Shown here in pieces: positions 1-6,374 of a stretch of DNA of 34,549 nucleotides (its first letter is position 1; the number at the start of each line of letters is the position of its first letter). Source of the DNA: Actinomycetota bacterium (lineage in GTDB: Bacteria > Actinomycetota > Acidimicrobiia > Acidimicrobiales > CADCSY01); NCBI GenBank assembly GCA_004366205.1, contig SIRW01000033.1, positions 1 to 34,549 of the forward strand, written 5' to 3'. Both the position numbers and the translations under genes were made by a program. Under the pieces are notes generated by a model that saw only the letters and a list, made by a program, of their open reading frames with translations, did no database searches and was not told the DNA's origin.

Positions 1-98
1 GTTGGTCGCAGCACAACCCCGAGCGGAGCGGAGCGAGCTCCTCCCACCGGTTAGCGGACGTGGGAGAGATCAAACAATCCGCAAAGGGGGTGCATCAC

Positions 99-188
99 AT
101 GAAGAAGGCACGCGTCCGCATGCTGGCGATCCTGTCCAGCGTCACCACGTTCCTCCTCGCTTCCGGTGCCGGTTGGGGCCTCCGGTAG
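99..188 (+). CDS. Small hydrophobic peptide, 29 residues, function unknown
   Basis: A short ORF begins with ATG at 99 behind a strong Shine-Dalgarno run (AAAGGGGGTG, about 6-8 nt upstream) and ends with TAG at 186-188. The product opens with a basic stretch (MKKARVRM) followed by a hydrophobic segment (LAILSSVTTFLLASGAGW), so it looks like an isolated signal peptide or single-pass membrane peptide. It lies 137 nt upstream of the HD-GYP gene on the same strand, in a stretch of visibly lower GC than the rest of the window. I do not recognise a family. It could be a secreted signalling peptide, a small membrane protein or a leader peptide. The ribosome-binding site is the main reason to believe it is translated; homology cannot be judged here. 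Confidence 0.5.
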   Translation: MKKARVRMLAILSSVTTFLLASGAGWGLR

Positions 189-325
189 CGCCCGTGGCTG
201 CGCGAGCTAGATCAGCTCACACGCAGCCTGCAACACGCAAAAGGAGCGCTGTATCCGCGCTGCGCCTTCGCCGCCTATTCCCTAGCTCGGTCGCCGCCAC
301 CCCTCGCAGGCACGGTGCAGACGAC

Positions 326-1693
326 TTGACCAGACTACGAGCACTCGAACTGGCGACTCTCGCCACCGCCGCCGGTGTGGTCCTCGCGGCCGTCCTCTTG
401 AGCGACGGCAGCGTCGATCTCCGCTACGTGCTCGCGCTCGGCGGGTTGGTCGTCATCGGCGAGAACTCCTCGATGCTGCTCCCCCGAGCCAGCAGCATCA
501 GCCCGACCTTCATGGTGATCATGGCGTCCGTGGCGGTATTCGCCAGCCTGGACGCTCCATTGATCCTCAGCGCCACCCTTGTCGGAGCGTTCGCAGGACT
601 GTACTGGCCACACGTCCGGCGCCTCAGGCTCCCGGAGATCGGCTTCAACTGCGGCCAGTTCGCGCTTTCGTCAGCGGCAGCCGCCCTCGCCTACCAAGCG
701 CTGCCAAGCGCGGCAGGGCCCTGGATCGTTCCAGCGGTGGCCCTGACAGCCCTCGCGTTCGCCCTTGTCAACACCAGCCTCATCGTGCCGGTCGTCGCCC
801 TGCACAACAACGAGAGGCCTCGGATGGTGCTGGCTCAGATGATGCCGGCCTTCCCGAACTACTTGGCGTTCGGGATGCTCGGGTTGGTCGTCGGTGAGTT
901 GGCCTCAGCACTCGGACTCGCCGTTGTCGGGCTACTCATCCTCCCGATGCTGATCGGACGCTTCGCGTACTCCTCGCTCATGAAGATCCGCGACGCCCAC
1001 GAGGCGACGATCGGGATCTTCATCCGGCTGATCGAGGCGAAGGACCCGTACACGGCGGGGCACACGGAGCGGGTGGCGAAGTACTCGCAGTACATCGCCG
1101 AGGAGCTGGACCTGCCGCCGTCGTGGTACGAGCACCTGCGGCACTCGGCGCTCATGCACGACGTCGGCAAGCTCGCCGTGCCGAACCGGCTGCTGAACAA
1201 GCCGGGCAAGCTCACCGAGGAGGAGTTCGCCGTCGTCCGCCGGCACAACGACGTGTGCATCAACATCCTCGGGCGCGTCGACTTCATGCGCACGATGGCG
1301 GTGACGGCCTCCGACAAGCACGGCCGCTTCGAGGACGCCACCGACATCGACCCTGCGAACCAGCTCGTGCTCGAGGCGCACATCGTGGCCGTCGCCGACT
1401 CCTTCGACGCCATGACCTCGACCCGGTCGTACCGCAGGGCGCTCGACCAGGACGTCGCCTTCGCCGAGCTCCGGCGCTGCGCCGGCACGCAGTTCAACCC
1501 GGCGTGCGTCGAGGCGCTGATCCGCGCCATCGAGAAGCGGGGCGAGCGCTACGGCGCCGGCTACGAGGTCGACGTCCACGACTTCGCCGTGCCCCCGCCC
1601 GAGGCAGGTGTGGGCTCGGCCGGCCTCGGCGACCTCGCGGACGACACCGAGGACGCCGGCGCCACGCTCCCGCGGGCAGAGGGGGGCTCGTGA
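326..1693 (+). CDS. Membrane HD-GYP-type phosphohydrolase with degenerate GYP motif
   Basis: The 455-residue product has about six hydrophobic segments (residues 1-225) followed by an HD domain of the HD-GYP type, a family that usually hydrolyses cyclic di-GMP at the inner membrane. The HD pair is present (H278-D279 in LMHDVGKLAVP), as is an HN motif at H307 and the late AVADSFDAMTSTRSYR stretch. The canonical HHExxDGxGYP block is replaced by SDKHGRFEDATD around residues 329-340, so activity is uncertain. The TTG at 326 is chosen because the membrane domain begins directly after it; the frame stays open upstream, but the translation there (Pro/Arg/His-rich) looks non-coding. Third-codon positions change abruptly near nt 1012, from about 16% A/T to about 1%, at the boundary between membrane and HD domains. 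The stop overlaps the next start (GTGA). Confidence 0.8.
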   Translation: MTRLRALELATLATAAGVVLAAVLLSDGSVDLRYVLALGGLVVIGENSSMLLPRASSISPTFMVIMASVAVFASLDAPLILSATLVGAFAGLYWPHVRRLRLPEIGFNCGQFALSSAAAALAYQALPSAAGPWIVPAVALTALAFALVNTSLIVPVVALHNNERPRMVLAQMMPAFPNYLAFGMLGLVVGELASALGLAVVGLLILPMLIGRFAYSSLMKIRDAHEATIGIFIRLIEAKDPYTAGHTERVAKYSQYIAEELDLPPSWYEHLRHSALMHDVGKLAVPNRLLNKPGKLTEEEFAVVRRHNDVCINILGRVDFMRTMAVTASDKHGRFEDATDIDPANQLVLEAHIVAVADSFDAMTSTRSYRRALDQDVAFAELRRCAGTQFNPACVEALIRAIEKRGERYGAGYEVDVHDFAVPPPEAGVGSAGLGDLADDTEDAGATLPRAEGGS

Positions 1694-2982
1694 GCACCCC
1701 GCGGCGGCGACTCGCCAGCACGCTGTTGCTGTGCGGAGCGGCGGTCGCCGCCGCGGGGGCGGTCCTCGCCGAAGGCTGGGGCGGCGTGGGCGTGTTCGCC
1801 CTCGCCGTGCTGATGGCGGCCGGCTTCGTGATCACGGTTCCGGTCCCGTTCGGCGGCGCCGTGCCGATCGGCCTCGCCCTCGTGATCAGCCTCGCCGTGC
1901 TGCTCGAACCCCGTGCCTTCGGGCTCGTCGCGACCGGCGGCGCCAGCGGCTCGGTGCTGATCTGGTGGATCCGCGCCGACCTGGCCACCGCCGCCCGAGA
2001 GGGGCTGCGGGTGACGGCAGCCCTCGGCCTCGCCGTGCTGAGCGCGGCGACGCTGTCCGACCTGACCACGACGGCCGGGCTCGGGGTCATCGGGCGGGTG
2101 CTGCTCGTGGGAGCCGTGGTGCTGCTCGCCGACGCCCTGGTGTCGCGGCGGACGACGGTCGGCCGCGAGCAGCTGCACTGGACGCCTGCCGCGCCCGTGT
2201 ACCTGACCTTGCTGTGCGCGGGGGCGCTGATCGCGGTCGCCTCCGACCGTCCCGCCGGGGCGTGGATGGCGGCCGTCGCCCTGTTCCCACTGGCGATCGT
2301 GCGGTTCGCGTTCGAGCGCCACGCCGATGCGCACCGGACCTTCACCCAGACGGTGCAGGCGCTCGGCATCGTGCCCGAGCTCGCCGGCCTCGCCCCGCTC
2401 GGCCACAGCGAGCGCTCCGCCGTCTACGCCGAGCGCCTCGGCCGCCAGCTGGGCCTCGTGAACCAGGACCTCGACCGCGTCGTGCTGGCCGCCCGCCTCC
2501 ACCACCTCGGGGCGGTCTCGTTCGACCCGATCGAGGCGACCGAGGCACCGGCACCGGTGACGCCCGACGACATGGCGGTGCAGGGCGCCGCCATCCTGCG
2601 CGAGAGCGGCTTCCCCGACGACGTCGCCGAGCTCATCGAGGCCGCCCGGGCCGGCACGCTCGACGGCGAGGCACCGACGCTCGAGGCCGCCGTCGTGCGG
2701 ATGGCCACGGCGTTCGACGAGCTGGTCGGGAACGACCCGCGCCAGGCGGACCGGGCCCTCGCGGTCGTCGCCGGCCACCCCCGCGACCCGATGAGCCGCC
2801 GGGCCGCCGCCGGCCTGCTCGCGCTCGTCGCCGCGGACCCCGGGATCGTCGAGGACGCCGTGGCGGCGGGCGCACGCTTCACCGACGCGGCCGCCGGTCT
2901 CGACCTCGACGAGCTCGTGGCCGGGTCGGCCGCCGGCGAGCTGCTCCCGTTCGGACGCCGCCGGACCCAGCCCGCCCACTGA
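1690..2982 (+). CDS. Membrane protein with degenerate HD-GYP-like domain
   Basis: The 430-residue product starts at a GTG whose bases overlap the upstream stop, so it is probably translationally coupled to the preceding HD-GYP protein. Residues 1-210 hold about six hydrophobic segments. The C-terminal half is HD-like: H239 in GHSERSAVYAERLG matches the first metal-ligand region, but the catalytic HD pair is HH (H271-H272, ARLHHLGAV) and no GYP block is visible. The architecture mirrors the upstream gene without close sequence identity, so this looks like a diverged partner or pseudo-enzyme that may bind a nucleotide or regulate its neighbour. A 27-bp repeat of its last codons lies just past the stop. 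Confidence 0.7.
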   Translation: MSTPRRRLASTLLLCGAAVAAAGAVLAEGWGGVGVFALAVLMAAGFVITVPVPFGGAVPIGLALVISLAVLLEPRAFGLVATGGASGSVLIWWIRADLATAAREGLRVTAALGLAVLSAATLSDLTTTAGLGVIGRVLLVGAVVLLADALVSRRTTVGREQLHWTPAAPVYLTLLCAGALIAVASDRPAGAWMAAVALFPLAIVRFAFERHADAHRTFTQTVQALGIVPELAGLAPLGHSERSAVYAERLGRQLGLVNQDLDRVVLAARLHHLGAVSFDPIEATEAPAPVTPDDMAVQGAAILRESGFPDDVAELIEAARAGTLDGEAPTLEAAVVRMATAFDELVGNDPRQADRALAVVAGHPRDPMSRRAAAGLLALVAADPGIVEDAVAAGARFTDAAAGLDLDELVAGSAAGELLPFGRRRTQPAH

Positions 2983-3009: not shown

Positions 3010-3131
3010 CGCGCGGATTCGGTCCGAACGGCCCATGCAGGACGGGCCGGAGCGGCCGACGGACCCCCATGAGCGAGCCACGCACGAACGACCAGGTAGC
3101 CCGGGTCCCCGACTCGGACGGCCCAGGGGGG

Positions 3132-3137
3132 TACCCT
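3132..3137 (+). promoter_or_regulatory. -10 hexamer TACCCT for a leaderless gene
   Basis: TACCCT matches the TAnnnT -10 pattern and ends 6 nt before the GTG at 3144. Transcription would start at or next to the start codon. There is no Shine-Dalgarno sequence in front of the GTG, which fits a leaderless transcript. Confidence 0.6.
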
Positions 3138-3143
3138 CCACCC

Positions 3144-3848
3144 GTGGACGAGGTCCTGACCGGTCTCGAGCGCGAGCTGTGCCGGATCCCGGAGGTCCGG
3201 GCGACGCGGATCGTGGCCAACGACCGCGGCGTGCCCGTCGAGGTGCACGTCCTCGCCGCACCCGGCAAGCACGCCAAGCAGCTCGTCCGCGACGTGCAGT
3301 CGGTCGCCATGGCGAGCGCCGGCATCGAGATCGACCACCGCATCGTCTCGGTCGTGCAGCTCGACGACGGCACGGGCTCGACCCCGGGCGCCGCCGGTGA
3401 CCCCGACACCGCCCACGGCGCGGCGCCGAACGGCACCGCGACGCATCCGGCGCCCGCCGACATGGAGCGGATCCGCGTCGAGCAGGTCACCGCCGTGCGC
3501 GCCGCGGGCGGCTACGAGGCGATGGTGACGCTCGTCCGGGGCGAGGACACGGCCACGGGCACGGCCTCCGGTCCGGCCGCCGGCAGCCTGGCGCTGCGCC
3601 TCGCCGCCCAGGCCACCCTCGCGGCGTTGCGGGAGCTCGAGCCGGCGGCAGCCCGGGTCGAGGTCGACGCCGCCCACCTCACCCGGATCGGCGAGCGTGA
3701 CGTGGCGCTCACCACGCTCGTGCTGGTGAACCCACCCAACGAGGAGGTCGTGGTGGGCTCCGCCGTGGTGCGGCCCGCGGGCGACCACGAGGCCGTCGCC
3801 CGCTCCGTGCTCGACGCCCTCAACCGGCGCCTCGTCCGCATCACCTGA
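3144..3848 (+). CDS. Two-domain protein of unknown function
   Basis: The 234-residue product is not recognised. Residues 1-73 form a compact alpha/beta module (VDEVLTGLERELCRIPEVRATRIV...) containing GKHAKQLVRDVQSVAMASAGIEIDHRIVSVVQL, a pattern resembling small ACT-like folds. A Gly/Ala/Pro-rich linker follows (about 74-108). A second alpha/beta domain ends in AVARSVLDALNRRLVRIT. There are no signal peptide or membrane segments, so it should be cytosolic. The GTG at 3144 is preferred over the ATG at 3069 because a -10 hexamer ends 6 nt upstream of it. Only 13 nt separate it from the glycosyltransferase, suggesting co-transcription. A regulatory role is possible from the fold impression but unproven. 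Confidence 0.75.
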   Translation: MDEVLTGLERELCRIPEVRATRIVANDRGVPVEVHVLAAPGKHAKQLVRDVQSVAMASAGIEIDHRIVSVVQLDDGTGSTPGAAGDPDTAHGAAPNGTATHPAPADMERIRVEQVTAVRAAGGYEAMVTLVRGEDTATGTASGPAAGSLALRLAAQATLAALRELEPAAARVEVDAAHLTRIGERDVALTTLVLVNPPNEEVVVGSAVVRPAGDHEAVARSVLDALNRRLVRIT

Positions 3849-5264: not shown

Positions 5265-6374
5265 ATGCCCAAGGCCGCCGTGCTCACCGGGATCGACCAG
5301 CCGCTCGAGATCCGCGACGACCTCGAGCTCGAGTCGCCACGGGCCGGGGAGATCATGGTCCGGATGGCCGCGTCCGGGGTCTGCCACTCGGACCTGTCCG
5401 TGCAGAACGGCACGATCCCCAGCCCCACGCCGTGCGTGCTCGGGCACGAGGGGGCCGGCATCGTGGAGGAGGTGGGCGAGGGCGTCACGCACCTGAGCCC
5501 CGGCGACCACGTGGTGGTGACCTTCGTCCCCCGCTGCGGCGAGTGCTACTTCTGCCAGCGGGGCCAGGGCTTCCTCTGCGACAAGTACGGCGCCGTCGCC
5601 ACCGGCGGCCTCATCGACGGCACCCCCCGCTTCAGCAGCGGCGGCTCGCCCGTGTTCCAGATGTCGATGTGCGGCCTGTTCAGCGACCAGACCGTCATCC
5701 CCGCCATCAGCGCCGTGAAGATCGACCCTGACGTTCCCCTCAAGGCCGCCGCCCTCATCGGCTGCGGCGTGCTCACCGGCGTGGGCGCCGCCCTCAACAC
5801 CGCCGACATCAAGCCGGGAGACACCGTGGCCGTGCTCGGCTGCGGCGGCGTCGGCCTCAACGTGATCCAGGGTGCCCGCATCGCCGGCGCGTCGGAGATC
5901 ATCGCCATAGACATGAACCCCACGAAGCTGGAGATGACCAAGCAGTTCGGGGCCACCCAGACGGTCAACGCCGGTGAGGTCGACGCCGTCGGCAAGGTCA
6001 CCGAGCTCACCGGCGGCCGCGGCGCCGACGTGGCCTTCGAGGTGATCGGCCTCGGCCCCACCATCGACCAGACCATCAACATGACCCGCAAGGGTGGCCA
6101 GGCGGTGCTCGTCGGCGTCCCCCGCCTGGACGTCATGATCAACCTGCCGGCGGCCTTCGCCTTCCTCTACCTCGCCAAGACCGTCAAGGGGTGCTGGTAC
6201 GGCTCGTCGAACGTGCACGAGGACGTGCCCAAGCTGATCGACCTCTACCAGAAGGGTGAGCTGAAGCTCGACGAGCTCATCAGCCGGGAGATCAGCCTCG
6301 ATCAGGTCAACGACGCCTTCGAGGACATGAAGACGGGCGAGGTCGCCCGCTCGGTCATCGACTTCGGCGGCTGA
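5265..6374 (+). CDS. Zinc-dependent alcohol dehydrogenase (class III-like MDR)
   Basis: The 369-residue protein belongs to the zinc-containing medium-chain dehydrogenase family and should oxidise an alcohol or reduce an aldehyde with NAD(P). Catalytic-zinc ligands are visible in GVCHSD and LGHEGAG. The structural zinc loop is RCGECYFCQRGQGFLC. The cofactor Rossmann motif is GCGGVGLNVIQGARIAGA. ATG at 5265 is chosen over 5220 because an AGGGGGAG ribosome-binding site precedes it and the family core starts immediately. It stands alone, with a hairpin about 30 nt after the stop, next to the tetR gene. No copy of the TetR palindrome is seen in its 90-nt upstream region. The substrate is unknown; the family includes mycothiol- and glutathione-dependent formaldehyde dehydrogenases and general alcohol dehydrogenases. 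Confidence 0.9.
   Translation: MPKAAVLTGIDQPLEIRDDLELESPRAGEIMVRMAASGVCHSDLSVQNGTIPSPTPCVLGHEGAGIVEEVGEGVTHLSPGDHVVVTFVPRCGECYFCQRGQGFLCDKYGAVATGGLIDGTPRFSSGGSPVFQMSMCGLFSDQTVIPAISAVKIDPDVPLKAAALIGCGVLTGVGAALNTADIKPGDTVAVLGCGGVGLNVIQGARIAGASEIIAIDMNPTKLEMTKQFGATQTVNAGEVDAVGKVTELTGGRGADVAFEVIGLGPTIDQTINMTRKGGQAVLVGVPRLDVMINLPAAFAFLYLAKTVKGCWYGSSNVHEDVPKLIDLYQKGELKLDELISREISLDQVNDAFEDMKTGEVARSVIDFGG

Follow-up and report, generated by a model that had tools for sequence, protein, structure and literature searches.

The gene at positions 326-1693 of the window (the whole stretch of 34,549 nt analysed, which is an entire contig) encodes a membrane sensor joined to an HD output domain, and lies behind a conserved leader RNA that encloses a small open-reading frame. 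Our favoured reading, to which we give slightly better than an even chance, is that this leader gates the translation of a microprotein, which would in turn act on the sensor. The 325 bp upstream of the gene, whose low GC a first-pass annotation had ascribed to recombination along with the sensor half, belong to this conserved RNA/ORF leader and are not imported filler: leader GC is 0.61-0.67 in all seven relatives measured, so the low value upstream needs no recombination. 'Low-GC upstream DNA' can, in other words, mean a conserved RNA and not a foreign origin. The break in codon usage within the gene is a separate and recent event confined to this genome, for which the best explanation is that a short stretch came in from a close relative, or that drift produced it.

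The window starts inside the leader. Its first 127 nt are identical to the last 127 nt of contig C77, the neighbour across an assembly-graph junction, which carries the missing upstream part of the leader. The parts of the locus, in window coordinates, are:

1..12, + strand: 3' end of the 5' arm of P1, the remaining ~38 nt of which lie on contig C77 at about 5505-5542
22..31, + strand: junction motif AGCGGAGCGG (consensus AGCGRAGCGG)
41..66, + strand: hairpin P3, stem CTCCCAC/GTGGGAG, with UUAGCGGA within the loop
83..92, + strand: Shine-Dalgarno-like AAAGGGGGTG serving the small ORF, largely base-paired in the fold prediction
99..188, + strand: 29-codon ORF MKKARVRMLAILSSVTTFLLASGAGWGLR, with a basic start, hydrophobic core, invariant Ala and five-residue tail
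248..296, + strand: 3' arm of P1, pairing with the 5' arm on C77 and window 1..12
326..1003, + strand: membrane sensor half, MASE9-like, under the Pfam cut-off, with 16% A/T-ending codons (AT3)
1004..1693, + strand: HD half (HD_5), AT3 under 2%, HHE..DGxGYP degenerate
1690..2982, + strand: second HD protein (HD2), in tandem, degenerate
3072..3848, + strand: conserved protein P3, without a Pfam or NCBIfam family

Leaders at this place in 14 further genomes of the order have the same layout: a long 5' arm, then AGCGRAGCGG, a hairpin whose loop is UAGCGRA, ribosome-binding site, ORF, 3' arm and sensor gene. A consensus fold by RNAalifold on a MAFFT alignment contained no pairs because hairpin P3 was misaligned there, so we tested pairing in each sequence separately with cross-genome and shuffled controls. 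The 5' arm of P1 pairs with window 248-296 at 43 of its 50 positions, and the overall complementarity of the two arms averaged 48.6 within the own genome, 25.6 across genomes and 26.7 after shuffling. Within three clades, own versus cross-genome scores were 75.7 vs 44.1, 38.0 vs 24.5 and 43.2 vs 28.8 (p = 8e-10, 4e-13 and 4e-12 for the three clades); P1 is weak in some instances, and exceeds the 99th percentile of shuffles in 26 of 69. The predicted fold for the genome of the window (G000) contains 39 P1 pairs, with z = -5.6 relative to dinucleotide shuffles. The stem of hairpin P3 scored 12.6 within its own genome, 8.8 across genomes and 8.7 when shuffled, and stems of different sequence still pair: CTCCCAC/GTGGGAG in G000, CTCTCGC/GCGAGAG in L232, CTCCAGGT/ACCTGGAG in L229 and CAGCGG/CCGCTG in L091. 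These comparisons show P1 and hairpin P3 to be a covarying structure. The unpaired motifs recur as well, the UAGCGRA loop of hairpin P3 in 43 of 70 leader instances and the junction motif as AGCGGAGCGG in 40 and AGCGAAGCGG in 14 of the 70, the others being variants by 1-2 bases. By eye, many Bacillota leaders also show pairing of the Shine-Dalgarno region with the segment just 3' of the junction motif, as ATATAGCC/GGCTATAT or as altered forms of this pair.

In G000 the two P1 arms contain a 30-nt inverted repeat joining C77 5510-5539 with window 262-291. We rejected an invertible or MITE-like element as its identity, as other genomes have the same arms with the sequence changed and the pairing kept. 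An upstream TTGACA was likewise discarded as a -35 box: it sits within the P1 arm or next to it and, by eye, has no -10 at the right distance. Rfam covariance models gave no leader match in any locus tested, at E-values up to 1 or 5, and a known riboswitch identity was dropped on this basis. The leader shares with c-di-GMP riboswitches and other Rfam leaders the position of a structured 5' leader before c-di-GMP-type output domains, but it differs from them in having no Rfam match to E 5 and in enclosing a conserved ORF.

To survey the distribution of the leader we used a sequence model built on 21 leaders, with G000, G024, G766 and G772 being training members among the genomes with hits, and analysed 70 instances from Actinomycetota and Bacillota. 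Strong hits occurred as one copy each in 15 of 298 genomes of the order, and all 15 of these fall within the 17 genomes found to carry the sensor half in a search of 397 genomes. Across the phylum 39 of the 396 genomes searched carried the leader, as did 24 of 291 in the class to which a Clostridiaceae MAG belongs, and it was also present at Coriobacteriia and Bacillota loci. Nearly all of the 70 instances lie directly 5' of an HD-GYP protein, in which a MASE9 sensor can often be recognised, and tblastn placed a homologue of gene 326-1693 downstream in 69 of them; among the 27 hits in the phylum, 26 have an HD domain downstream, nearly all with an HHE..GxGY signature. In three loci the leader comes with the same sensor, but the output differs or is uncertain: GAF-GGDEF-EAL follows leader and sensor in G018 and G024, and in G077 the contig breaks off after a weak GAF match 3' of the sensor. 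At the syntenic place in G024 (beside glycosyltransferase, ADH and TetR genes) lies an HD-GYP protein that has lost both sensor and leader. The leader therefore follows the sensor and not the output, since the GGDEF-EAL copies keep both leader and sensor and the syntenic HD-GYP of G024 has neither. Many MASE9 proteins have no leader that the sequence model can detect, with MASE9 in 122 genomes vs the leader in 39, and among the MASE9 loci L266-L270 the model found none in L268 and L270. In genome G421, contig C28 carries two leader-like hits (39223-39320 and 42095-42227), about 2.8 kb apart and on opposite strands.

The small ORF is mostly 24-31 codons long among the leader instances. In 65 distinct peptides (a tally that includes L238 in the wrong frame, the right frame being used for dN/dS) we observed a basic start, Leu at -5, -7 and -10 within a hydrophobic core, and an invariant Ala preceded by the small residues G/S/A, followed in 61 of the 65 by a tail of 4-6 residues; Trp occupies +4 in 26. 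Among 39 related ORF pairs, 61% of substitutions fell at third positions and dN was below dS in every pair (median dN 0.07, dS 0.77, dN/dS about 0.1). This substitution pattern argues for strong purifying selection on the coding sequence, and the microprotein is almost certainly translated. Neither Pfam nor NCBIfam has a family that reached its cut-off for the microprotein, the curated Phr, PhrK and NprX models gave no more than 13.6 bits compared with cut-offs of 25-75, and AgrD models did not match; a known pheromone family was rejected as its identity on these scores. The resemblance to Phr/NprX precursors and AgrD peptides lies in a tiny, secreted-like ORF beside a regulator, with a basic start and hydrophobic core, whereas the microprotein differs from them in lacking a conserved Cys or a recognised processing gene and in scoring far under the cut-offs.

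The sensor half of gene 326-1693 scores 14.8 bits against MASE9 (PF20972), under the cut-off of 24.3, which six scanned relatives exceed (L228, L230, L231, L236, L239 and L091). Alignment with relatives, the tblastn matches in 69 of 70 loci and the shared leader nevertheless show the sensor half to be homologous to MASE9 proteins. In the HD half (HD_5, 92.7 bits) the metal motif HDVGK stands at residues 278-282, and the HHE..DGxGYP signature is absent, with KHGRFEDATD where G021 has HHSRFDGGGYGG. The protein is thus like MASE9 + HD-GYP proteins in having homologues behind other leaders that exceed the MASE9 cut-off and carry the full HD-GYP motifs, but unlike them in falling under that cut-off and in lacking HHE..DGxGYP. 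This signature is lost in G000, G004 and G007 and in the group of G154, G179, G203, G225 and G262, and is kept in G021, G035 and G100; as the HD half has lost it, the output in G000, G004 and G007 may be regulatory rather than catalytic. In an AlphaFold model of the sensor protein, of low confidence (pLDDT 65, from five sequences), the sensor half superposes on TmRibU and on the biotin S-component at target-normalised TM values of 0.56-0.62 (E 0.09-1.2). At these E-values and this pLDDT the likeness to the S-components of ECF transporters (RibU, BioY) is a lead only; if real, it would suit the binding of a small ligand by the sensor.

In the mechanism that we propose, the RNA would gate translation of the microprotein, as suggested by the frequent pairing of its Shine-Dalgarno sequence, and the microprotein would act on the sensor as a membrane partner or, once cut by signal peptidase at the invariant Ala, as a peptide of 4-6 residues, tuning the HD or GGDEF-EAL output. 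We infer the link between microprotein and sensor from their co-occurrence. A leader RNA with an embedded ORF is a known type of arrangement, and there is a real chance that this one belongs to a new signalling module. In its fullest form, which we consider plausible though somewhat short of an even chance, such a module would span at least two phyla and consist of an RNA-controlled microprotein of ~25-30 residues, membrane-bound or secreted, acting as dedicated partner or ligand to a sensor of MASE9 type, possibly ECF-S-like, that controls an HD-GYP or GGDEF-EAL output, together with protein P3.

Taken as a secreted peptide signal, cleaved by signal peptidase after the invariant Ala and with its tail of 4-6 residues sensed by the adjacent membrane domain, the small ORF would account for the signal-peptide anatomy, with small residues at -3 and -1 and a tail of this length in 61 of 65 peptides, and for a similarity to Phr and NprX pheromone precursors that is sub-threshold only. 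We nevertheless regard this as distinctly unlikely: the hydrophobic core is more conserved than is normal for signal peptides, no exporter or maturation gene was recognised, and the sensor model resembles vitamin-binding S-components and not a peptide receptor. Rather less doubtful, though still improbable in our judgement, is that the leader regulates the downstream gene as an ordinary attenuator or riboswitch does: the ORF would be no more than a leader peptide, the fold would switch with its translation or stalling, and the peptide itself would have no function. Partial pairing of the Shine-Dalgarno sequence and loop motifs conserved as in ligand-binding RNAs would fit such a device, but the hydrophobic core and invariant GA are kept across phyla with dN/dS about 0.1, and the leader associates with the sensor rather than the output. 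Stalling peptides, moreover, usually conserve their C-terminal residues, whereas those of the microprotein vary.

To return to the reading that we favour, a mostly single-copy RNA with an embedded microprotein is kept in two phyla and moves with the sensor domain, not the enzyme, and this offers a concrete candidate for the stimulus of MASE9 sensors, an open question in c-di-GMP signalling. Neither the RNA nor the microprotein has a family in Rfam, Pfam or NCBIfam, and the literature on MASE9 or HD-GYP genes describes no leader or microprotein in the papers that our search covered, which left aside preprints and most subscription papers.

The codon-usage break within the gene had been counted by hand, and our recount bears it out, with 36 A/T-ending codons in codons 1-229, none in the next 100 and five, stop codon included, in the rest of the frame. 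Divided at the domain border, A/T-ending codons number 36 of 226 before nt 1003 vs 4 of 229 after. A change-point fit is best at codon 211 (nt ~958), with a log-likelihood gain of 17.1 compared with a maximum of 9.7 over 1000 permutations; no A/T-ending codon occurs from 212 to 342, so the border at codon ~226 (nt 1003), where the break had been placed, falls inside the uncertainty of the change point. The lower GC said to be shared by the upstream DNA is likewise present (0.658 at 1-325, 0.656 at 326-1003 and 0.709 at 1004-1690). Adjusted for amino-acid content with the genome's own codon usage, the N half has 36 A/T-ending codons observed vs 11.3 expected, and the C half 4 vs 13.1. Codon statistics were drawn from 686 kb of the 3.44 Mb genome (400 called genes), in which the median AT3 is 4.7% and 4.8% of genes have an AT3 of at least 0.159; the downstream neighbours HD2 and protein P3 have 4.4% and 5.0%. 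The N half is thus the unusual one, and the HD half is near or slightly under the local baseline. By log-likelihood the step ranks ~34th among the 400 genes, and its true rank is higher because most of the larger steps are over-extended gene starts. Constraint in the membrane domain was excluded as the cause, as membrane codons are A/T-ending in 4.2% of cases genome-wide vs 6.3% for soluble ones. Nor do homologues have the step in common: N exceeds C in 26 of 45, with a median difference of 1.3 points, and the AT3 step log-odds is 2.98 in G000 and 1.06 in the next homologue. The step is real and specific to the G000 genome rather than a property of the family.

The first-pass annotation had explained the step by recombination that put the sensor half of another lineage, with its upstream DNA, onto a resident catalytic half. 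A sharp AT3 step confined to G000 and close to the domain border would suit such a swap, as would the joint change of outputs by leader and sensor at the family level. Against it, maximum-likelihood trees of 13 proteins built separately for the two halves do not conflict: both place G000 beside (G004, G007), with bootstrap values of 96/89 for the N half and 92/100 for the C half. G004 and G007 also have the same architecture, leader and neighbours, with a DUF5317 protein, small ORF, sensor-HD, second HD protein and protein P3 in synteny, followed 3' by a glycosyltransferase in G007 and by ADH and TetR in G004, and leader GC is just as low in all relatives measured. On the trees and synteny we reject a sensor swap across lineages, and we give it very little probability. 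What survives of the recombination claim is that the step is neither family-wide nor due to membrane constraint, and movement of the sensor half and upstream DNA as a unit is something we see over long times at the family level, not in gene 326-1693.

A tentative explanation, to which we give a little less than an even chance, is that a short tract was imported from a near, unsampled relative of lower GC3. The tract would include the leader, the sensor half to codon ~211 and the following gene:

Contig C77, 3753-5213: DUF222-HNH gene (locus L059), between the DUF5317 gene and the leader, matching DUF222 and HNH

Import of this tract by homologous recombination, perhaps as a co-conversion driven by the HNH endonuclease, would explain the codon break and is compatible with the leader module; the gene adjoining the leader resembles DUF222-HNH proteins in both domains, and a homing role here is conjecture, as is the co-conversion. 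AT3 is 13% in the DUF222 gene and 16% in the N half vs 3-4% in the flanking upstream genes, and drops to 1.7% in the HD half, with 4-5% for HD2 and protein P3, whilst G004 and G007 have no DUF222 gene at the same place. On the other side, no donor was found, and the divergence of the N half is not clearly above the branch-length ratios seen in other lineages. An assembly chimera of strains in this metagenome-derived genome has, in our estimate, a very slim chance indeed of having produced the step: the 127-nt k-mer overlap at the contig start, 1 kb upstream, marks a branch in the assembly graph, but the break is well inside the contig, and the listed completeness of the genome is 100% and its contamination 1.88%.

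Downstream of the sensor gene, HD2 has HHLG in place of HDxGK and is likely a degenerate paralogue of the first HD protein. A homologue of protein P3 adjoins the leader in 62 of 70 loci, and its C-terminal end may resemble the LeuA dimerisation domain.
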